From an uncultured Granulosicoccus sp. (GTDB lineage: Bacteria; Pseudomonadota; Gammaproteobacteria; Granulosicoccales; Granulosicoccaceae): a stretch of DNA of 64,000 nt. The notes beneath the pieces are model-generated. The model saw nothing but the letters and a program-made list of their open reading frames with translations. It was not told the DNA's origin and did not search any database. The stretch covers positions 1-64,000 of the forward strand of contig CALDSR010000050.1 of assembly GCA_937924505.1 (NCBI GenBank), in the 5' to 3' direction. Positions 33,797 to 47,141 of this stretch are shown piece after piece (position 1 is the first letter of the stretch; each line of letters starts with the position of its first letter). Both the position numbers and the translations under genes were made by a program.

Positions 33797-34549
33797 TCAG
33801 CGCTGTTGACGCCGTGCTTCGAACAGGGCGATTCCGGCGGCAACCGATACATTCAGGCTCTCCACCTTCCCCAGCATGGGAATACTGAAAAGCGAGTCAC
33901 AAGCATCGCGCGTCAATCGACGCATCCCCTTGCCCTCAGCACCGAGCACCAAAGCGACTGATCCGGTCAAATCCAGCTCATACAGAGTATCGCTGGCCTC
34001 CCCGGCCGCCCCATAGACCCAAAAGCCGAGTTTCTGCAAGTCGGCAATTGCTCGTTTGAGGTTGGTGATCTGCACCAGTGAAACGGTTTCGGCGGCACCT
34101 GATGCGACCTTGCGCACCACCGGTGTCACGCCGACGCTGTTGTCGACCGGAATAACGACCGCGTCGGCCGCCACCGCATCTGCCGAGCGGAGACAGGCAC
34201 CCAGATTGTGGGGGTCCTGAATTTCATCAAGTACCAGGACCAACAAGGGACGGTTCGCCTGCGCCCGCCGTGATTCGATAACAGCAACCAGATCGGTCAC
34301 CGGTTCGACTGCGGATTCTCCACTGAAAACCGCCACTACCCCCTGGTGTTGAACATCAGCCACCAGAGCATCGAGCGTCTTTCTGTCGACTTCGGCAACG
34401 CGCAACTTGTTGGCACGCGCCAAATCCAAAACCGCACGTAACCTTGAATCACGACGACCACGTTGAACGAGTACGCGATCGATTTTCTCCGGCGCCGACT
34501 TCAACAGCGCCTTGACACTGTGCATACCGCCCACATGTTGCTCGGTCAC
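33797..34549 (-). CDS. rlmB: 23S rRNA (Gm2251) 2'-O-methyltransferase RlmB
   Basis: SpoU/TrmH-family knotted methyltransferase, 250 aa. The N-terminal RNA-binding domain starts GGMHSVKALL. Motif 1 is DPHNLGACLRSADA, motif 2 LVLGAEGKGM and motif 3 IPMLGKVESLNVSVAAGIAL, all in place. It begins with GTG, overlapping the rnr stop by 4 nt (GTGA). The rnr-rlmB pair is conserved in gammaproteobacteria. Confidence 0.95.
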   Translation of the reverse strand: MTEQHVGGMHSVKALLKSAPEKIDRVLVQRGRRDSRLRAVLDLARANKLRVAEVDRKTLDALVADVQHQGVVAVFSGESAVEPVTDLVAVIESRRAQANRPLLVLVLDEIQDPHNLGACLRSADAVAADAVVIPVDNSVGVTPVVRKVASGAAETVSLVQITNLKRAIADLQKLGFWVYGAAGEASDTLYELDLTGSVALVLGAEGKGMRRLTRDACDSLFSIPMLGKVESLNVSVAAGIALFEARRQQR

Positions 34550-37548
34550 GAGCGTTTGCGCTGCTGTTGTGTCTTGCCCCGGGCTTTCTTGGCGGCGGTT
34601 TTCTTGGTTGCTGTTTTCTTCTTGGTTGCTGTTTTCTTACGTGTATTGTTACGCGTTTTCTTTTTCACAAGCGCCGAGGACGCGTCGGGTTTTCCGCCAC
34701 CGGACGCATTTCGCGAAACCGATTTTTTACTCACCTTTTTTCGCGCGACCTTTTTCTGCTGCTGTTTACGCGTCACCTGTCGTTGCGATGTTTTTTTGTT
34801 TCGCGCCTCGCTCGTAGCCTTTTTCGTGACTTTTTTCGTGACTTTTTTCTTGGCTACTTTCTTGGCGACTTTCTTGGCAACCTTACTTTGGCCTTGCTTG
34901 TTGCTATGAACTTGCTGCGTATTTGTTTTTCTCGTTGCCGAGCTCGAACTTGATCTGGATTGCTTTTTCTCGGTCGTGTTGCGGGAAGCTGCCTTTTTTG
35001 CCGCAGCTTTTTTACTGGCGAATTTTTTGCTCCTCGCATTTTTGGTCGAAGCCTTCTTGCTGGCAACAGATAGCGTTGCAACTTTTTTACCGGCAACCTT
35101 CCTGCCAGAAACTTTCTTGCCTCTTTTCCTCTTCGGCGTGCCAGGTTGCGAGTGTTTTGCGTGTGTTTGCGAGGTAGCTTCCGATGTAGGGGCACCGCTA
35201 GTCAGCTGAAGAATTTCGTCAAACACCTCTTGTGCCTTCTCCTTGACCTCCTGCTTGTCCTCACGCCGAGATTTTTTTCGATTTCGACGTGATTTTTCAC
35301 GCGATTTACCCGCAGTTTTTCCGGACGACTTGCCCGATCGTTTGCCGGTCTTTCCGGACTCATGCGCAATTTCAATGAAGTCAATTTTACGCTCTTCGAG
35401 ATTCACCGCAGCCACCTGTACGGTTATGGCATCGCCCAAATGGTATTGCTGGCCGGTTCGTTCCCCGATCAGCGCATGCGCAGCTTGATCGAACTGATAA
35501 AAATCACGCGATAAATTGGTCACATGAATCAAACCCTCAACATGAATATCCTTAAGCGCTACAAACAACCCAAATGAAGTAACGGCAGATACGACACCTG
35601 GGAATTCGCTGCCCACATGCGCTTGCATGTACTCGCATTTCAACCAGGCGGTGACATCACGCGACGCCTCTTCGGCACGTCGTTCGGTCGTTGAACAACT
35701 TTCGCCAAGACTCTGCACATTGTCCTGCGAATATCTGAATTTGGACTTCGCCACCCGACTCAACACATGTTTAATTGCCCGATGCACCATCAGATCCGGA
35801 TAACGTCGAATCGGCGAGGTAAAATGTGCGTATTGCGTTAATGCCAAACCAAAGTGCCCTTCGTTTTTCGGTTGGTACACCGCCTGCTGCATCGACCTGA
35901 GCATGACGGTCTGTATAACCAGCCGATCTGGCCGCTCCTTGATCTGACGACTCAAGGCCGCATAGTCCAAAGCACTCGGGGAATCGCCACCACCGAGTGA
36001 CAGGCTTCTCAACGCAAGAAACGATCGAAGATCTTCCAGTCGATCGGCCTTTGGCCCGTTGTGCACGCGGTACAGAGTCGGCATTTCATGATGCTCGAGA
36101 AATGCCGCGGCTGCGATGTTCGCGAGGATCATGCATTCTTCGATCAGTTTGTGAGCATCATTACGTATCACCGGCACAATCTCACTGATTTTCTTTTCAT
36201 CATCAAAGAGAATACGCGTCTCTGTTGAATCAAATTCGATTGCACCTCGCGTGGCTCGCACTGCAGCCAGCGCCTTATACAAGCGATGCAGCTCTTCCAG
36301 CATCGGCATCAGTGCATTGTGCCGGGTGCGCAAGGACGACGTCGGCTCAGTCAACATTTCATTGACTTCAGAATACGTCAGACGCGCATGCGAGCGCATG
36401 ATGCCGTTGTAGAAGCTCGCTCGACGAATCGCACCAGTATCCGTGATAGTGATCTCGCACAACATACAAAGACGATCAAGCTCTGGGTTCAAGGAGCAAA
36501 GCCCATTGGACAAGACTTCCGGCAACATCGGCACGACTCGCCCGGGAAAATAGACCGAGGTGCCGCGTTTGATTGCCTCTTCATCGAGTGGCGAATCAGG
36601 CTCAACGTAATGGGCAACATCAGCGATCGCAACAAGCAATCGCCAACCATCTTCAGTACGCTCACACCAGACGGCATCATCAAAATCCCGAGCATCACTG
36701 CCATCTATAGTGACCAAGGGCAGATCGCGTACATCCTTACGTCCTTTGGCAGCGCTGTTCGGCACCGTCGTGGAAAACGATGCAGCCTGATCCGTTACCG
36801 CATCTGGCCATTCGAACGGGATACCATGGCTGTGCAGGGCAACATCTATTTCCATACCCGGCCGCAGGTGCTGGCCCAATACCTCGACAACCTTTCCGAC
36901 TGCCTGGCGACGTCGGCTCGGTTGCTCGGTGATTTCAATCACCACAATATCGCCATTTTCAGCGCCCATCAGCTCATTGGGCGGGACCAGAACGTCCTGA
37001 TGAATGCGTTTGTTATCTGGCGAAACAACGATGGTGCCGCGCTCGATGATCAGTTTTCCGACCAGTGATTTATTGGCGCGCTCAACCACATCGACAATAC
37101 GGCCATCACGACGGCCTCGATGATCGATGCCAGTGACACAAACGACGACTCGATCGCCGTGCAAAACCTGGCGCATCTGTTTACCGTTGAGGTAAATGTC
37201 CTTTTCACCATCATCAGCAATGACAAACCCGAATCCATCAGGATGAGCGCTGATGCGGCCAGCGATCAATGCCTCCGTATCCACCGGAACCAATCCGCGT
37301 CGACGGTTCTGGATCAGTTGGCCATCACGCTTCATGGCGCCTACACGTCTGCGCAATGCCTCAAGGTCCACATCTGTACGCAGATCAAGATGTTCGGCCA
37401 ATGCCTCAAAATCCATCGGGCCTGAGTCACTGCGCAGCACCGATAAAATATGCTCTCGGCTGGCGATCGGCGAATCGTACTTCGCCTGTTCACGCTGACG
37501 ATGAGGATCTCGCCCCGATTTTGGTGACTGTTTTTTCTTGCTGTTCAT
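34546..37548 (-). CDS. rnr: Ribonuclease R with a 270-residue lysine-rich C-terminal tail
   Basis: Processive 3'-5' exoribonuclease that degrades structured RNA, 1000 aa against 813 in E. coli. The order is a winged-helix (about 28-90), cold-shock domains (about 95-225), RNB catalytic core with the metal-binding DGSDARDFDDA at 282-292 and TSPIRRYPDLMVHR at 577-590, then S1 (about 647-728). From residue 731 the rest is low-complexity, dominated by Lys, Arg, Ser, Thr and Ala, with KKVAKKV-type repeats and one acidic helix (EDKQEVKEKAQEVFDEILQL). The E. coli enzyme has a short basic tail that helps RNA unwinding; this one is far longer. AAGGGA precedes the ATG. Confidence 0.96.
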   Translation of the reverse strand: MNSKKKQSPKSGRDPHRQREQAKYDSPIASREHILSVLRSDSGPMDFEALAEHLDLRTDVDLEALRRRVGAMKRDGQLIQNRRRGLVPVDTEALIAGRISAHPDGFGFVIADDGEKDIYLNGKQMRQVLHGDRVVVCVTGIDHRGRRDGRIVDVVERANKSLVGKLIIERGTIVVSPDNKRIHQDVLVPPNELMGAENGDIVVIEITEQPSRRRQAVGKVVEVLGQHLRPGMEIDVALHSHGIPFEWPDAVTDQAASFSTTVPNSAAKGRKDVRDLPLVTIDGSDARDFDDAVWCERTEDGWRLLVAIADVAHYVEPDSPLDEEAIKRGTSVYFPGRVVPMLPEVLSNGLCSLNPELDRLCMLCEITITDTGAIRRASFYNGIMRSHARLTYSEVNEMLTEPTSSLRTRHNALMPMLEELHRLYKALAAVRATRGAIEFDSTETRILFDDEKKISEIVPVIRNDAHKLIEECMILANIAAAAFLEHHEMPTLYRVHNGPKADRLEDLRSFLALRSLSLGGGDSPSALDYAALSRQIKERPDRLVIQTVMLRSMQQAVYQPKNEGHFGLALTQYAHFTSPIRRYPDLMVHRAIKHVLSRVAKSKFRYSQDNVQSLGESCSTTERRAEEASRDVTAWLKCEYMQAHVGSEFPGVVSAVTSFGLFVALKDIHVEGLIHVTNLSRDFYQFDQAAHALIGERTGQQYHLGDAITVQVAAVNLEERKIDFIEIAHESGKTGKRSGKSSGKTAGKSREKSRRNRKKSRREDKQEVKEKAQEVFDEILQLTSGAPTSEATSQTHAKHSQPGTPKRKRGKKVSGRKVAGKKVATLSVASKKASTKNARSKKFASKKAAAKKAASRNTTEKKQSRSSSSSATRKTNTQQVHSNKQGQSKVAKKVAKKVAKKKVTKKVTKKATSEARNKKTSQRQVTRKQQQKKVARKKVSKKSVSRNASGGGKPDASSALVKKKTRNNTRKKTATKKKTATKKTAAKKARGKTQQQRKRS

Positions 37549-38155: not shown

Positions 38156-38854
38156 ATGGAACACAACTCAGATTTCACCGCGAGAGCCCTGGTCCATGCC
38201 GATTCTCTCGACTGGGCAAAATCCCCGATGAAAGGGGTGCATCGTCGTCTCCTGGATCGCGTTGGCGGCGAAGTCGCACGCGCAACATCGCTGGTCAAGT
38301 ATGCGCCAGGTAGCCATTTCTCCCCACACGTGCATACCGGCGGTGAAGAATTCATCGTACTCGAGGGTGTATTTCAGGACGAGCATGGTGATTTTCCCGC
38401 AGGCTCCTACATCCGCAATCCACCGGAGTCCAGCCACACGCCAGGCTCAAATCCCGGTTGCGTCATTTTCGTCAAACTGTGGCAATTTGATCTTGCCGAT
38501 AGAACGCATGTTCGCGCCGACATAAACAAGATCGGGCAAATCAAGGATGCCACTCGAAGCGGCGTTTGCGTCAGCACCCTGTTTGAAGATGATCGGGAAT
38601 GTGTGCGCCTTGAAAATTGGGATGCCAACAACGAGGTTTCGATAGATTCCGCAGGTGGCGTCGAAGTTTTTGTACTTGACGGCTCCTTCACTGAATCTGG
38701 CGATACCCTCGTCAAGCATTCGTGGTTGCGAGTACCCAGTGGCGGAAAATTCACCGCGACAACCGGCCCCACCGGCGCAAGCATCTGGATCAAGACAGGA
38801 CACCTTCGCTTCGTCGATGAGGAGATTCATCGGATCAGAAAACTTAACCCGTGA
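38156..38854 (+). CDS. Double-cupin protein, ChrR-like cupin family
   Basis: A 232-aa protein of two cupin barrels, similar to the C-terminal cupin of ChrR-type zinc anti-sigma factors but without the N-terminal sigma-binding part. The first barrel has the metal set His58, His60, Glu64 and His94 (SPHVHTGGEE ... SSHTPG). The second barrel (about 125-225) has lost the histidines. The start at 38156 follows a perfect palindrome by 30 nt, so repression by a TetR-type regulator is plausible. A role in metal binding or small-molecule dioxygenation is possible; substrate unknown. Confidence 0.82.
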   Translation: MEHNSDFTARALVHADSLDWAKSPMKGVHRRLLDRVGGEVARATSLVKYAPGSHFSPHVHTGGEEFIVLEGVFQDEHGDFPAGSYIRNPPESSHTPGSNPGCVIFVKLWQFDLADRTHVRADINKIGQIKDATRSGVCVSTLFEDDRECVRLENWDANNEVSIDSAGGVEVFVLDGSFTESGDTLVKHSWLRVPSGGKFTATTGPTGASIWIKTGHLRFVDEEIHRIRKLNP

Positions 38855-39432
38855 ACACGGACCTTCAATCGTTCGTACCTTGCAAACGCAACCACGATCC
38901 GAGATTACACCTTTAGTTTAGGTTACGAACCACAAAACGTCGTTTTCATCCCAATCTCCTTAGTCGAAGAAAAGCTCTCAGCCTTATTCGACTTATTACT
39001 TCACTTAAGACTTCCTCTCACCCTCGTGTCAGACCCTACAGCCAATGAACAAACGGTGACCTTGCGAATCATCGAATAAGTGCCACTGAAAGACGCCAAA
39101 TAAAGCCTTTTAAATGGCCATGTAACGAAATTTGGCGGACATCTACTCCGAGTTAGCACTTTAGTAACGCCGAATAATCTCGCCCTATTCTTAGGTACAG
39201 TCCGACATCGCCCACTGAAAGACATGCCATTAACCAAGTAATTTCAATATCAAACTGCAATCGAATAACACCAAGAAATAATTTCCTAACCTTTAGATTT
39301 AAACGGAACAAATGCCGCGCCTTTCTGTGAAGCAAACACTAATAACAAGACCATCAACTGTGAATCAGATTTAGATAACACACTTCTATTCATATGTAAT
39401 TGCGTCGTCATCTACTAACGGTAAATAACGAC
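38855..39432 (+). other. 578-bp gene-free leader of the curli-like locus
   Basis: No credible gene. The only frames (for example 39001-39237 minus) have no recognisable motif and odd composition. It contains a perfect 12-bp direct repeat and three CGAATAA boxes (listed separately) and is AT-rich towards the right end. It probably holds the promoter and regulator sites of the curli-like operon, but I cannot place a -35/-10 pair. Confidence 0.55.
39071..39268. repeat. Spaced direct repeats upstream of the curli-like genes
   Basis: CCACTGAAAGAC occurs perfectly at 39083-39094 and 39212-39223 (129 bp apart). CGAATAA occurs at 39073-39079, 39171-39177 and 39262-39268; the outer two are part of ATCGAATAA. 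The copies may be binding sites for an activator. Confidence 0.5.
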
Positions 39433-39948
39433 ATGGAAGCAAAGCATTACATCATTGCTCTGTCATTAACAGCGAACACATCTTTTGTACAGGCTTCCCA
39501 AAGCAAAATATTGGAAGCAGAAACAAAACAGCAAGCTGAAGATGAATGTGCCCCATTGCTCAGTGACAAGCACAAGCTTCTTATCACCCAATGCGAATCA
39601 ATCAATTTGTCCGCATCGACAGAAGGTGGCGATTTAATCCTGATCGAATCAAAAGGACACGGCAATTCGATCACTATTCACGTGGGGTCACCCGAAGAAC
39701 CGATCGATTCGCGAAAAACAAACAACGATGACCCAATAGACCAGGAGATGTCTGAAGCAGAGTTGATCAAAAGACTCCTGAAAAGACGAGATCTGTCCCC
39801 TGAAGCAATTCAACGCCACATCGATCGAATAAAGAAAAGGAAATCCAGTAACAAAGTAGAGCAGCACGGATGCATTGAAGGACAAAACTGCATCGACATA
39901 AACACAGAATATCCAATTGATGAACTAGAGCTGGAATCTTCAAAATGA
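39433..39948 (+). CDS. Secreted protein of unknown function, first gene of curli-like locus
   Basis: A 171-aa protein with a signal peptide (hydrophobic about residues 6-20, ending VQA). The mature part has five cysteines (two mid-protein, two near the C-terminus in GCIEGQNC), a stretch reminiscent of a curlin repeat (SKGHGNSITIHVG, about 83-95), and a charged helical region (about 118-145). It matches no Csg protein I know. The frame opens at a TTG at 39400, but the ATG at 39433 begins the signal; no good Shine-Dalgarno is seen. Position suggests a role with the curlins, such as nucleator, chaperone or cap; that is inference. Confidence 0.6.
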   Translation: MEAKHYIIALSLTANTSFVQASQSKILEAETKQQAEDECAPLLSDKHKLLITQCESINLSASTEGGDLILIESKGHGNSITIHVGSPEEPIDSRKTNNDDPIDQEMSEAELIKRLLKRRDLSPEAIQRHIDRIKKRKSSNKVEQHGCIEGQNCIDINTEYPIDELELESSK

Positions 39949-40024
39949 CCAGCAATTTCAATCATCAATTAGCCCCAACGAAAACTCGCCGATTCACCCA
40001 ACCTTATCGGCAACGATTCGTATC

Positions 40025-40075
40025 GAACCAATGTGGTTCATTTGTAGTGCCCTTTAAACCGGTGTCGAAAGACAC
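40025..40075 (+). promoter_or_regulatory. Two short hairpins in the leader of the large curlin gene
   Basis: GAACC-AATGT-GGTTC (40025-40039) and GTGTC-GAAA-GACAC (40062-40075), the second closed by a stable GNRA tetraloop. They lie 41-91 nt before the start. They may stabilise the message or regulate translation of an abundant product. Confidence 0.45.
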
Positions 40076-40115
40076 TATTTCGGCCGATTTGCGGTCATTT
40101 TTTTAGGAAATAATC

Positions 40116-41414
40116 ATGTTAAAGAAAAGTCTCATAGCTCTCGGAGTAGCGGCCGCTTTCCCCGCCGTCTCTTTTGCAGATATTGTTAATCCAATCGATC
40201 TGGATGTTCCAGAAAAAACACTTGAGTTACTTTATAGTCCTCCGGTTTCGTGGACATCTGACAAAGGAACCCATGGCAACCAGTCTGTGATCGGTCAGGA
40301 CAGTTCTTACAATTACGCTTTGGTTGACCAAGATGCCGGGTATGGAGATTCTGATTCACTGATCTTTCAAGGTGGCTACGGTGCTAATCTGGCCGTTGTT
40401 GAGCAAGATGGTTCCGATGTCAACTCAATCATCGACCAAACTGGCTTCAAACAGAAAGCTTTTACAACCATGAGCAATGGCGATGTTGGAAGCAACTCCC
40501 GAATTCAGCAACGTGGTGGGGAGTATAACTATGCCGACGTCACAATCGACGGCGACGAGAACAACAGTGTGGTTCTACAAGACCACGCATGGGGTGCGGA
40601 AGCTGAAGTTGTTATCTGGGGTGAAGGCAACACAAGCAATGTCTACCAAGGCGGCATTAGCAACACGGGAACTGTGTCTCTCTCAGGCAACAAAAACGTC
40701 AGCACCATGCACCAATGGGGAGACTTCAACACTTCTACCACAAACGTGACCGGGAACAAAAACCGTGTAACCTCTGAACAAGACGCATGGTCTTCAGATA
40801 TCAACGTGGAAATTGTAAATTCAGACAAAAACAAAATTAACTCCAATCAATTCGGCAGCGAAGATGACAACATATCCGTAAGGTTGGCTGGCCAGGCAAC
40901 GTCGAACGACGTTTATCTTCAGCAAGGCGGATCAAGGCACTCACAGTCCAACGATATTAATGTTCGTGTCGGAAACTCAGACGATAACTTGGTCGCGGCA
41001 CTACAAACTGGCAAGTACAACGATACAGATATCACTATCAGACAAGACTCGGACGATAACAGTGTTGTATCCAACCAAGTTGGATTCGGCAATAAAGCCG
41101 AATTAACTATCCATAGCGTCTCAATCGGAAACAGTGTTTTAACCGATCAACGTGGCATCTCTAACACGGTAAGAGCCGATATCGATTATTCCTGGGAAAA
41201 CGAAATTGGCGTAGAACAAAGGGGAGCAAAAAACAAAGCTGTTCTTGATCTGTATGACGCTGACTACAACTTCATTGCTGTTGCGCAAGCCGGCCTTTCT
41301 AATTTTGCAAAGGTAGATCTTGATACCGACGGCGGAACTGTTTCTATCCACCAGCATGGAATTAACAACAAAGCTTGTTCATCTTCAACTGGCACTTGCA
41401 GCTACACAAACTAA
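40116..41414 (+). CDS. Large curlin-repeat protein (CsgA-like amyloid subunit)
   Basis: A 432-aa secreted protein with a Sec signal (1-21, ending SFA) and a mature region made almost wholly of curlin-type units of 22-23 residues. Motifs of the form Q-x-G-x-x-N recur about 19 times (FQGGYGANLAVVEQDG, YQGGISN, DQRGISN, EQRGAKN, HQHGINNK). In CsgA such units stack as strand-turn-strand to build the amyloid. E. coli CsgA is 151 aa with five units, so this subunit is about three times longer. Many alternate strands have Asp, Asn and Ser in place of Gln, and the end carries two cysteines (NKACSSSTGTCSYTN). AGGA precedes the ATG. Probably the main fibre subunit. Confidence 0.85.
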   Translation: MLKKSLIALGVAAAFPAVSFADIVNPIDLDVPEKTLELLYSPPVSWTSDKGTHGNQSVIGQDSSYNYALVDQDAGYGDSDSLIFQGGYGANLAVVEQDGSDVNSIIDQTGFKQKAFTTMSNGDVGSNSRIQQRGGEYNYADVTIDGDENNSVVLQDHAWGAEAEVVIWGEGNTSNVYQGGISNTGTVSLSGNKNVSTMHQWGDFNTSTTNVTGNKNRVTSEQDAWSSDINVEIVNSDKNKINSNQFGSEDDNISVRLAGQATSNDVYLQQGGSRHSQSNDINVRVGNSDDNLVAALQTGKYNDTDITIRQDSDDNSVVSNQVGFGNKAELTIHSVSIGNSVLTDQRGISNTVRADIDYSWENEIGVEQRGAKNKAVLDLYDADYNFIAVAQAGLSNFAKVDLDTDGGTVSIHQHGINNKACSSSTGTCSYTN

Positions 41415-41454
41415 AGCGCCAGAAAATCGTCAACTTAATTTGAGTTGATAATTT

Positions 41455-41490
41455 GAATGCCTGTCTGCCCTCCTTTGCAGATAGGCATTC
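41455..41490 (+). promoter_or_regulatory. 14-bp hairpin between the two curlin genes
   Basis: GAATGCCTGTCTGC and GCAGATAGGCATTC pair over 14 bp with one G-U and an 8-nt loop. No T-run follows, so it is more likely a 3' stabiliser or partial attenuator that lets the large curlin be made in excess over downstream assembly genes. Confidence 0.65.
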
Positions 41491-41512
41491 ATTCACAGGA
41501 ACAATAAAGTCA

Positions 41513-42121
41513 ATGTCAAAATCCCTATCAACCGTTTCGCTGCTGACAACAATGTCGTTCGGTCTTGCGCCTTTTATTCATGCTTCGGAAATCGACATGT
41601 ATCAAAACAGTGACTACTCCGATATCAGTATCAATTATGACGTCAACCCAAGTGATATCGACGTGGACTTGCGTCAACTCGGGTCTAACAACTCGATTGA
41701 TTTAAATATCCAGAGCCAGGTAACTGCCAACATATCGCAGAACGCCAGTCACAGTTCAATTGACATGCGTATTCTTGACTCGATCGGATTACTTGATATC
41801 AACCAATACGGAAATTCAAACCGTATCAATTCAAACGTTACTGATAGCGTCTCTCGAATTGATTTGAATCAAAGTGGCGATGATAACAGTCTTAACATTG
41901 ATATTGACAATTTACTGAACTCCCTTGACGTCAATCAATACGGGGATACCAACAATATCCTATTCAAGCATTCAGGATACGGCGGCAATGCTGCATTAAC
42001 ACAGAGCGGCTCAGGCAATAGCCTTGAGATCATCACCTCGTCTGGCGGTCTGTCGGTAAATGTCACCCAAGAAGGTTCCGGAAGCTCGGTCAAGGTTATC
42101 AATGGATTTGAAAATTTATGA
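41513..42121 (+). CDS. Small acidic curlin-repeat protein (CsgB-like candidate)
   Basis: A 202-aa secreted protein with signal peptide (1-26, ending IHA) and about eight 22-residue units: DINQYGNSN, DLNQSGDDN, DVNQYGDTN, ALTQSGSGN and VTQEGSGSS mark the Q-x-G turns. It is rich in Asp, Ser, Asn and Ile and poor in aromatic residues, so it differs clearly from the large curlin. In curli operons a second curlin (CsgB) nucleates the fibre, and this is a natural candidate for that. The ATG at 41513 is chosen for the signal; the frame opens at a TTG in the upstream hairpin. Its stop overlaps the next ATG (ATGA). Confidence 0.82.
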   Translation: MSKSLSTVSLLTTMSFGLAPFIHASEIDMYQNSDYSDISINYDVNPSDIDVDLRQLGSNNSIDLNIQSQVTANISQNASHSSIDMRILDSIGLLDINQYGNSNRINSNVTDSVSRIDLNQSGDDNSLNIDIDNLLNSLDVNQYGDTNNILFKHSGYGGNAALTQSGSGNSLEIITSSGGLSVNVTQEGSGSSVKVINGFENL

Positions 42122-42519
42122 ACAACAAACACCACGGGATAACACTACTGTGCTGCTTATTTCTGGTCATACCGGCCATCAACAAAGCAACTGCTAACAG
42201 TGCGCCTAATGTTCAAAAGCGACAATTACAGGTATTCGCAACCGATGTTCGATCACCATATGCGTATGAAATTGTAAATCAGTTGACACTCATGCTTGTT
42301 AATGAAGGGCTAACTGTCAGACAGAATTTCAAGGTTGCAGAACGGACGAACCGCGGAGCACAACTGTCCTTGGAACTGAGTTCCGACGAAAATATTATTG
42401 GCGCAGTACCACTAAATGATAAACGCCAACTCACCAGAGAAGATCCGGTGGAGATTGCAAAAAAGCTCCTGAGCGCAGTGAAGCAAAGTGGTTTTTTAAT
42501 CTCCGCATCGCCCCTCTAG
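42118..42519 (+). CDS. Secreted protein of unknown function; possible very diverged CsgE
   Basis: A 133-aa protein with signal peptide (hydrophobic 9-22) and a small alpha-beta mature domain. It sits between the curlins and csgF, where an assembly factor is expected, and is translationally coupled to the small curlin (ATGA). It lacks the obvious CsgE sequence, but the run N-F-K-V-A-E-R followed by strand LSLEL and then AVPLNDKR resembles the layout of CsgE (NLTINERPSAR, ITITV, FPLKRD). This is a by-eye similarity only. It may be a diverged CsgE, a CsgC-like amyloid inhibitor or a new component. Confidence 0.55.
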   Translation: MNNKHHGITLLCCLFLVIPAINKATANSAPNVQKRQLQVFATDVRSPYAYEIVNQLTLMLVNEGLTVRQNFKVAERTNRGAQLSLELSSDENIIGAVPLNDKRQLTREDPVEIAKKLLSAVKQSGFLISASPL

Positions 42520-42561
42520 CACTAACACTAACAATGGAACCGAATTTAATCAGGAATCATC

Positions 42562-42981
42562 ATGAACAAAATAAAAACAATACTTGTCGTCGCAGCATTC
42601 TCCATAAGTCACTACGCTGCAGCTTCTGAACTTGTTTTTCGACCAACAAACCCTTCTTTTGGTGGAAATCCGAATAACAGTACGCATTTATTTTCACTAG
42701 CCAATACTCAAAACCAGTTTTTACCTGAGCGAGAAGAGTTAACACCACTTGAGGAATTTAACGAGCGTTTACAACGTGCATTGCTGGGGCGAATTTCAAA
42801 CGCTGTATCTCAGGACATTGTCGATGGGGATGGAAATATTGTCCCAGGTGTTTTTGAAACTCTCGATTACACAATCAACATTACTGATTTGGGTGGCGGT
42901 GTAATGCGCATAGATACAACAGACAAAGCCACAGGCAGCGTGACGACCATCGAAGTCAGAAACGATATCGATCCATTATAA
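42562..42981 (+). CDS. csgF: Curli assembly protein CsgF
   Basis: A 139-aa secreted protein. After the signal (1-21) the mature N-terminus SELVFRPTNPSFGGNPNN matches the E. coli CsgF region TFQFRNPNFGGNPNN, the part that inserts into the CsgG pore and forms a second constriction. The middle (LEEFNERLQRALLGRISNAV) matches the CsgF helix, and the C-terminal strands (VMRIDTTDKATGSVTTIEV) match its beta domain. In curli biogenesis CsgF couples the pore to fibre nucleation at the cell surface. It lies 42 nt after the unknown gene and 52 nt before csgG. Confidence 0.92.
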   Translation: MNKIKTILVVAAFSISHYAAASELVFRPTNPSFGGNPNNSTHLFSLANTQNQFLPEREELTPLEEFNERLQRALLGRISNAVSQDIVDGDGNIVPGVFETLDYTINITDLGGGVMRIDTTDKATGSVTTIEVRNDIDPL

Positions 42982-43033
42982 AAATAACAAGCTTTCACAC
43001 GGAAAGTCATCAGGAAGATTCGGGTAATCAATC

Positions 43034-44572
43034 ATGAATAAACTAATAGCACTATTAACAATATCAATCAGCGGATGCGCCTCATTTACCCCTCAAGGCG
43101 ATTTCCAACAACCGTTTGACCGAGCTACACCAACTGCAAGCACGGATACATTCAAAGAATTGGTAAGTTTACCTAGGCCTGTTGGCGCGATTCCCGCGGC
43201 AATCTACCAATTCCGCGATCAAACGGGACAATACAAGCCGGACCCATCCAATAATTTGTCTACCGCCGTCACCCAGGGCGCTGAATCTATATTGGTCAAG
43301 GCGTTGCTTGATTCAAGATGGTTTGTACCGTTAGAACGTTCAGGCTTGCAAAACATTTTGACTGAACGAAAAATCATCCAAACTGCAAACTTCGAACAAT
43401 CCGGAGAGCAGTCTGTATTGCCAGCGATGAGTGCAGCGCGAGTCGTTTTCGAGGGTAGCATCGTATCTTATGATTCAAATACCAGAACCGGCGGAAGTGG
43501 ATTACGCTTCCTCGGTGTCGGTGGCTCACATACGTACCGTGAGGACCGGGTAACGGTCAACTTGAGAGTTATCAACACCAACAACGGTACCATTTTACAC
43601 AGCGTAAACAGCACCAAAACAATCTTTTCACGACAGCTGAGTTCTGGCATTTTCAGCTTTGTCGACGAGGATAAAATACTAGAAGCGGAAGCGGGTTATT
43701 CATACAATGAACCCTCACATATAGCGGTGGTAGAAGCGATCGAATCTGCACTGATCAACATCATTGCAGAAGGCATAATTCGAAGTACATGGTCTCTTGC
43801 TGATATCCAGGGAATTTCCAGCGAAGCCTTTGATCGTTATATCAGTGATTCCGATAGGGACCAGTTCCTGTCACAAAAAACCGCACTGGCAGAAGCAACG
43901 GCAGAGCGACGTCGCGTTGCCGTGGCAGTACAAGAACGCATGAAGCGCGGGTTTTCCGGTGCAAACAAGTACTATGAGGACACCGCGGACGAACGACGTA
44001 AAATTCGCCAGAAAGCGGCCGCCGAGGTTGTACGCAAGCAAAAGAGCAAGAGCCGCAAAACAAACAAACTATCGCAGACGTTGGCTGCAGCGCCGAAACC
44101 GGTTCAGACTAATAAGCGGGCCCACACAGGCAACGTTTCCAATCAAACACATCCGCAAACAGACCAATTACCGATTCCCGCTGAATTAATCGAACGGCAG
44201 GCGCAACAATTGTTGAAATTGCAGGCGGACTTGCAAATCCGTGCGGCGAAACAAGCGTACAACAACGCAATGTACGCGCGAGAGTTGCTCAGACAACAGG
44301 AAACGGCTCATCAGAAACGTACAGCAGAACCAACGACAGAACCAACGGCCGCCCAGGAATCAACGGTAAGGCAAGCGGTCACGACTCCTAAAAGCGCAGC
44401 CTCTGAAAGCACAGACGTTGACAACATGGCGTCGACCAACGCTGTCGTTCGCGAATCACCGTCGGAGCCTGCACCGACGGCCAGCACTGAGTCTACACAA
44501 GACGACTCGCAACCACCGTCCCGCAAACCTTATCCGGTCAGCCCACCATGGCTTGATGTATCAATGCGCTAA
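43034..44572 (+). CDS. csgG: Curli secretion channel CsgG with a long C-terminal extension
   Basis: Nonameric outer-membrane lipoprotein channel for unfolded curlins. The lipobox ISGC gives lipidated Cys15. Residues about 38-258 align well with E. coli CsgG (TGQYKP, LLDSRWFVPLERSGLQNIL, ERKIIQ, VNLRVIN, GYSYNEP). The constriction loop reads KPDPSNNLSTAV where E. coli has KPYPASNFSTAV: the equivalents of Tyr51 and Phe56 are Asp70 and Leu75, while Asn55 is kept (Asn74). E. coli CsgG is 277 aa; here about 250 further residues follow: a charged helical part (about 275-340), a Gln/Ala-rich helical part (about 380-425) and a Thr/Ser/Pro-rich tail. In the known structure the C-terminus faces the periplasm. 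Confidence 0.93.
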   Translation: MNKLIALLTISISGCASFTPQGDFQQPFDRATPTASTDTFKELVSLPRPVGAIPAAIYQFRDQTGQYKPDPSNNLSTAVTQGAESILVKALLDSRWFVPLERSGLQNILTERKIIQTANFEQSGEQSVLPAMSAARVVFEGSIVSYDSNTRTGGSGLRFLGVGGSHTYREDRVTVNLRVINTNNGTILHSVNSTKTIFSRQLSSGIFSFVDEDKILEAEAGYSYNEPSHIAVVEAIESALINIIAEGIIRSTWSLADIQGISSEAFDRYISDSDRDQFLSQKTALAEATAERRRVAVAVQERMKRGFSGANKYYEDTADERRKIRQKAAAEVVRKQKSKSRKTNKLSQTLAAAPKPVQTNKRAHTGNVSNQTHPQTDQLPIPAELIERQAQQLLKLQADLQIRAAKQAYNNAMYARELLRQQETAHQKRTAEPTTEPTAAQESTVRQAVTTPKSAASESTDVDNMASTNAVVRESPSEPAPTASTESTQDDSQPPSRKPYPVSPPWLDVSMR

Positions 44573-44617
44573 GTAATGGATTAATGACAATATAACCATC
44601 ACCCATCGCATCGGATA

Positions 44618-47141
<2,524 letters not shown>

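Follow-up and report, generated by a model that had tools for sequence, protein, structure and literature searches.

Within the window, a stretch of 64,000 nucleotides from an uncultured Granulosicoccus sp. (assembly GCA_937924505.1, contig CALDSR010000050.1), we found a run of six genes at positions 39433-44572, flanked by a cupin gene and by purA, the latter named from its translation. In the open reading frame list of the window the six frames are open and co-oriented, as a previous sequence-only reading of this DNA had described, and with all six open there is no sign of decay in the window. The features of the run, all on the plus strand, are the following.

39433..39948, +, small protein, first gene of the run; 171 aa from this ATG, signal-peptide-like N-terminus by eye
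40116..41414, +, major curlin (CsgA-type), 432 aa; PF07012 1.9e-9 in 8 stretches, 8 QxGxxN motifs
41513..42121, +, minor curlin, 202 aa counted from the ATG at 41513; PF07012 2.4e-5 in 3 stretches, 5 QxGxxN motifs; CsgB-type by size and place
42118..42519, +, divergent CsgE as judged from the csgE slot between curlin and csgF and from a profile-profile match, 133 aa
42562..42981, +, CsgF, 139 aa; PF10614 4.9e-27
43034..44572, +, CsgG, 512 aa; PF03783 5.7e-63, lipoprotein-type N-terminus by eye, core about residues 1-257
43256..43258, +, codon of CsgG Leu75 at the place of E. coli Phe56; alignment to the solved CsgG and residue survey
43847..44086, +, CsgG extension helix 1, residues 272-351; AF2 prediction, pLDDT by block 84-95, falling to 63 at the end
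44180..44326, +, CsgG extension helix 2, residues 383-431; AF2 prediction, pLDDT by block 68-90, conserved island
44327..44569, +, variable tail of CsgG, predicted to be disordered; AF2 pLDDT mostly <50, conservation 0.25

The intergenic gaps in the run measure 42 to 167 bases, and the start of 42118 and the stop of the minor curlin share 4 bases. By Pfam, the parts of a type VIII (curli) system are present, namely a CsgG-family pore, CsgF and secreted curlin-repeat subunits, and the earlier identification of a clear CsgF, a clear CsgG and two curlin-repeat proteins holds. NCBIfam agrees with Pfam on the six-gene run, with scores below the NCBIfam curated cut-offs. Promoter and terminator scans of positions 38800-44700 gave no clear excess over shuffles (6 vs 8.9 and 9 vs 6.9, respectively). 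The locus reads as a complete type VIII (curli) operon, which is probably working. Elsewhere in the window, an RNase R-type protein of 1000 aa is encoded at 34546-37548 on the minus strand; its Pfam domains end at residue 724 and are followed by a long Lys/Arg/Ser-rich tail.

Several traits that had been taken as odd, the lack of CsgC among them, are found in the window but ordinary elsewhere. The main curlin is indeed very long, and no GerE (CsgD-like) domain was found among the 37 other window proteins scanned, a set that leaves out purA, hisZ, hflC, hflK and shorter frames. However, the order curlin-curlin-E-F-G and long curlins recur in other csg loci (e.g. L001, L003 and L018), and in the available part of Dueholm et al. 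2012 (PMC3521004) CsgA reaches up to 529 aa, csgC is reported only in Enterobacteriales and Aeromonadales, csgD lies apart from the other csg genes in several groups, and CsgG size does not follow CsgA size. For our own survey, the best 80 loci were kept from a sample of at least 589 matched genome-contig stretches, at least 525 of which encode a CsgG relative. A CsgE profile built from these 80 loci finds CsgE in 78; the two exceptions, L017 and L050, have their CsgG near a contig end. The CsgG frames of the 80 loci range from 228 (cut off) to 325 aa, except for L005 with 470 aa, where the extra length is N-terminal in the called frame; all these lengths run from the first possible start codon, and some are too long. 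From the locus survey and the available part of PMC3521004, neither the long curlin nor the lack of CsgC and CsgD calls for a separate explanation, whereas the long CsgG does.

The protein of the first gene, 39433, has no Pfam family at E<=10. Its single relative, of 95 aa, is encoded in the corresponding position of L122, ahead of the long curlin (phmmer 3.1e-6 with the frames of three loci as database; weak at genome scale, 0.0026 with the whole L122 genome searched), and a gene of this type occurs in 1 of 48 genomes of the order. The similarity lies in the first half of the two proteins and includes two Cys and the stretch S-K-G-x-x-N-S-I. Our guess is that the product is a secreted accessory protein. 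A curlin-like half repeat noticed by eye was rejected, as equally good scores came from 63 of 2000 shuffled versions of the window protein and from 649 of 2000 of its relative.

The real novelty of the locus is its CsgG. That this protein is almost twice the normal length was a good observation of the earlier reading: the match of the solved CsgG (8.3e-66) covers residues 6-257 and leaves 255 residues beyond. In the same alignment Leu75 falls on E. coli Phe56, and the place of Tyr51 is taken by Asp in the window CsgG and in its relatives P0006-P0008, with the numbering (Phe56, Tyr51) counted from what we take to be the E. coli CsgG sequence. According to the available part of PMC9245180, Phe56, Tyr51 and Asn55 form the constriction surface of CsgG. 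By a pattern count, Leu stands at the Phe56 place in the window protein, in L122, L123 and L124 and in 24 of the 25 database proteins P0005-P0029 (P0028, a fragment, was unparsed). Phe was counted in 76 of the 81 CsgG frames of the 80 loci, in all ten of P0030-P0039 and in 80 of the 85 of P0040-P0124, the remainder being unparsed.

A tree of 105 CsgG cores (41 of the 81 locus frames, that is every second one, 10 further locus frames and 54 of the best 120 proteins) groups the Leu-type proteins in one clade of 28 rows with support 99/95, and 27 of these 28 have Leu. P0036 lies inside the clade with Phe, so that at least two changes are needed. The sister group consists of L001, L092 and P0030, none of them with Leu, and the joining fork has support 100/97. 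In L001 and L092 CsgG has 281 and 283 aa, respectively, and CsgE is canonical. A 369-genome sample of the class gave five CsgG matches at 1e-60, none of the window type, while a 293-genome sample of the order of G017 held 26 genomes with a CsgG match at 1e-50, several of them long CsgGs.

Among the best 120 of 1170 matches, the closest database CsgGs (P0006-P0008) are 79-81% identical and 527-535 aa long; they are followed by 21 proteins at 44-59% identity, and lengths in this set vary from 334 to 535 aa. Many members of the Leu clade have a C-terminal extension, which stays conserved among relatives of 44-59% identity and most strongly so in helix 2. From all 25 rows, AF2 predicts helix 1 at 272-351, helix 2 at 383-431 and disorder in the tail, in a model that is weak overall (mean pLDDT 65.9, pTM 0.47); charged, Ala-rich sequence is often turned into long isolated helices by AF2. 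Over 16 sequences, the commonest residue has a mean frequency of 0.77 in the core and 0.64 in helix 2, as compared with 0.32 in the linker and 0.25 in the tail. Helix 2 thus stands out as a conserved island between linker and tail, its value being somewhat inflated by the four near-copies P0005-P0008 in the sample. An extension profile made with 16 of the 25 rows of alignment A2 picks up all 9 left-out rows at 3.9e-5 or better, some by a short match beside the core. It gives E 0.65 or worse with L113, L114, L115, L116 and L005 and no match at E<=10 with L111 and L112. The CsgG tails of L123 and L124 differ from that of the window and are likewise unmatched by it, and several members of the Leu clade carry only the first part of the extension. 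In the open-licence PubMed Central literature we found no paper that links CsgG and CsgE with a C-terminal extension, none on CsgG with a SPOR domain and none on curli in Granulosicoccus, and such work may exist in print elsewhere; 'helical extension' together with CsgG led, in the available parts of that literature, only to a Pel exporter.

Long CsgGs of other kinds were met in the survey. Among the loci taken from the G017-order sample, SPOR-like tails behind a linker are found in CsgGs of 495-535 aa at L111:6325-7932 (-), L112:6898-8415 (+) and L115:6575-8062 (+), and those of L113 and L114 look SPOR-like by eye; SPOR scores over the Pfam cut-off in L112 and below it in L111, L115 and P0024. 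In L111, L112 and L115 a canonical CsgE adjoins this CsgG, and a long CsgG alone hence does not imply a divergent CsgE. P0085 joins CsgG to an OmpA domain (1.5e-21), and P0105 has a precomputed PF13505 domain. At L116:5735-6874 (-), from the same G017-order sample, CsgG has a CsgF-like C-terminus (3.3e-7 with our own profile, below the Pfam cut-off) and a separate CsgF lies beside it; this is possibly a CsgG-CsgF fusion. At G017:C16:19408-20433 (L089, L091) the CsgG match extends past an in-frame TAG and TAA into the extension region, the open frame itself having 288 aa and lying beside CsgF and CsgE. A SPOR identity of the L123 and L124 tails, suggested by eye, was dropped: no SPOR was found in L123 at 0.01, and the tails of L123, L124 and P0024 reached an hhalign P of only 0.13 against SPOR-type tails.

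What the window extension does can be read in several ways. A serious rival, which we consider well possible, holds that it anchors CsgG to peptidoglycan or another envelope part and has no part in subunit handling. Other CsgGs do end in known anchoring domains (OmpA in P0085; SPOR in L112 and, below cut-off, in L111, L115 and P0024), and P0024 itself belongs to the Leu56 clade. However, the window CsgG has no Pfam match to SPOR or OmpA at E<=10, its tail is unmatched by the SPOR-tail profile, and helices are not known as a peptidoglycan-binding module. It is rather unlikely that the extension and the CsgE changes are neutral drift under weak constraint, with the system working like ordinary curli. 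The poorly conserved linker and tail and the spread of CsgG lengths among the best 120 of 1170 matches agree with drift, and the available part of PMC6050966 places the CsgE tail residues outside the CsgA contact; the conservation of helix 2, even if somewhat inflated by near-copies, and the Leu retained in 27 of the 28 clade rows speak against it.

The earlier reading had recognised no CsgE and had listed the products of 39433 and 42118 as two secreted proteins of unknown type. Like the first, the 42118 protein has no Pfam match at E<=10, PF10627 included, and is not filed as a PF10627 member, but its position and profile-profile comparison identify it as a divergent CsgE. An HMM of CsgE built from the csg loci gives it only 0.8 bits, a search of about 5.8 billion proteins finds three relatives besides itself at E<=1, and a search of solved structures returned one chance match. 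The family alignment was made from 42118 and the csgE-slot proteins of three related genomes (L122, L123 and L124); as a query, its seven rows found two more relatives, P0125 and P0126, the latter (source name: Granulosicoccus sp. 3-233) being identical to the L123 protein from MRKLF onward. Taken with the hisZ result, this identity places the window, with moderate strength, near Granulosicoccaceae (Gammaproteobacteria, Chromatiales in the NCBI taxonomy). Against the CsgE profile, the seven rows give P 2.5e-6 (CsgF control 0.17) and the nine rows 3.2e-6, with 0.013 as the best of 200 column shuffles; P is 6.4e-5 without the window group and only 0.0094 (hhalign) for the four window-type rows alone. 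An equivalent divergent gene occupies the same slot in four loci, the window included. PF10627 is found in none of the three genomes with a divergent CsgE-like protein and in all five comparison genomes. Since PF10627 misses proteins of the 42118 type, a verdict of 'csgE absent' from standard profiles can be a false negative.

The AF2 model of 42118 has a b-a-b-b-b-a core. CsgE (2na4) ranks fourth with Foldseek and third with VIA-align and is not separated from unrelated proteins, HPF, VtrA and others fitting the model as well. In the alignment, the Gly, Gly and Phe of 78-79 of 79 CsgEs are V, A and I in 42118, and the acidic C-terminal motif is absent. A basic segment remains, E-R-T-N-R-G against the CsgE consensus E-R-P-t-A-R-w-G, which may sit in a shorter beta1-beta2 loop; in our reading of the alignment its two Arg would be equivalent to those of CsgE. 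In the available part of PMC6050966, the head of CsgE that contacts CsgA is assigned to Arg47 of the beta1-beta2 loop, purifying selection is found to act on Arg43 and Arg47, and the acidic tails are not implicated in CsgA contact. It is very improbable that 42118 is an unrelated small periplasmic protein of a common fold that has moved into the csgE slot and may also have taken on the work of CsgE: the failed PF10627 and HMM searches, the modest hhalign value of the four rows, the equally good structural matches and the lost residues would suit such a protein, but the seven- and nine-row matches, their persistence without the window group and over all shuffles, and the same slot filled in four loci point to CsgE.

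With 42118 as a divergent CsgE, the changes can be placed on the tree. As the sister group has an ordinary CsgG and a canonical CsgE, the constriction and CsgE changes appear, on the evidence of the four loci seen, to lie on or near the stem of the Leu clade. They fall within one clade and may be one historical event, so that they form an association and not proof of joint function. The sequence-only reading had named adjacent csgE or csgD homologues at this locus in close relatives as evidence that would count against its view, and these exist in part: the divergent gene in the same slot of three relatives, canonical csgE in the sister group and, in L122, a LuxR-type HTH frame next to csgG (GerE 3.5e-16). 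The latter belongs to pieces of a receiver-LuxR-type regulator on both strands (L122:4600-5760), an arrangement due to an inversion or an assembly error; the regulator is a CsgD-like candidate. The conclusion that this is a distinct branch stands, though mostly for other reasons than those first given: the CsgG clade, the constriction Leu, the C-terminal extensions and a CsgE below PF10627 detection in four loci.

Overall, we are fairly confident that this is a complete and probably working curli operon with a divergent CsgE, in whose lineage the constriction, CsgE and the CsgG C-terminus have been altered. Gene content, homology, clade and conservation are read directly from the sequences, and by them a single lineage carries a changed constriction, a changed cap and a C-terminal extension of CsgG. 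Several points stand against this: 42118 is identified as CsgE neither by single-sequence nor by profile HMM searches, the divergent CsgE was seen in four loci only, and the extension is not uniform in the clade. In the proposed mechanism, the curlin subunits would reach the periplasm by Sec, the divergent CsgE would collect them where the CsgG pore opens to the periplasm, and after leaving through CsgG they would be held and nucleated at the surface by the minor curlin and CsgF. The path would differ from the standard one in three ways: the constriction Phe is replaced by Leu; CsgE lacks near-invariant residues, may keep the CsgE fold and retains the basic segment of the beta1-beta2 loop; and CsgG carries a C-terminal extension, in the window presumably two long helices.

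If the C-terminus of CsgG faces the periplasm, nine copies of the extension would surround the cap. We infer a periplasmic position of the helices about the CsgE cap, where they might assist in capturing or retaining subunits or tether the pore to another envelope part. Most likely, the extension acts at the periplasmic entrance, be it in subunit catching, cap holding or anchoring. It is a more doubtful idea that nine long helices form a periplasmic basket which, together with a weakened CsgE cap or partly replacing it, feeds the re-tuned constriction; if true, the curli system would have a second way to guard the export of amyloid. In the available part of PMC6957492, nonamers of CsgE form the cap over the periplasmic entrance of CsgG and are considered to bring CsgA repeats into this entrance, and this role as cap and CsgA carrier also appears in the available part of PMC6050966.

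The locus marks a distinct, little-studied branch of a known export system and bears on how CsgE and CsgG hold unfolded amyloid subunits and release them safely. A natural lineage that departs from standard curli at the constriction, in the cap and on the C-terminal face of the pore offers ready-made variants for testing which parts must match. Moreover, CsgG is in use as a sequencing nanopore, where a naturally different constriction chemistry (Leu for Phe56, Asp for Tyr51) may be of practical use.

With E. coli curli (csgBAC, csgDEFG) the locus shares CsgF, the CsgG pore, curlin-repeat subunits and, by profile comparison, a CsgE homologue. It differs in a CsgG of nearly twice the length with a C-terminal extension and Leu for Phe56, in a CsgE below family detection, in lacking csgC and an adjacent csgD, in the extra gene 39433 and in a long curlin, which is ordinary outside Enterobacteriales in the available part of PMC3521004. 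Single-operon csg loci from environmental gammaproteobacteria (e.g. L001 and L018; csgBAEFG of Alteromonas and Pseudoalteromonas in the same part of that source) have the same order and a long curlin, but a canonical CsgE and a CsgG of about 260-325 aa. The Granulosicoccus-type loci L123 and L124 are alike in the CsgG clade, the Leu at the Phe56 place, the divergent CsgE-like gene and a genome without PF10627; they differ in the kind of CsgG extension, csgG lies upstream of the curlins in L123, and a 39433-type gene was not found in them. SPOR- and OmpA-tailed CsgGs (L112, P0085) also combine the CsgG core with a C-terminal addition, but theirs are known anchoring domains, and canonical CsgE is kept in L111, L112 and L115. 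FapF, the pore of the Pseudomonas amyloid, resembles the window CsgG only in how it might work, as its helical periplasmic part is proposed to regulate access and recruit subunits, whereas the protein itself is an unrelated trimeric 12-stranded barrel with an N-terminal coiled coil (available part of PMC5557850).
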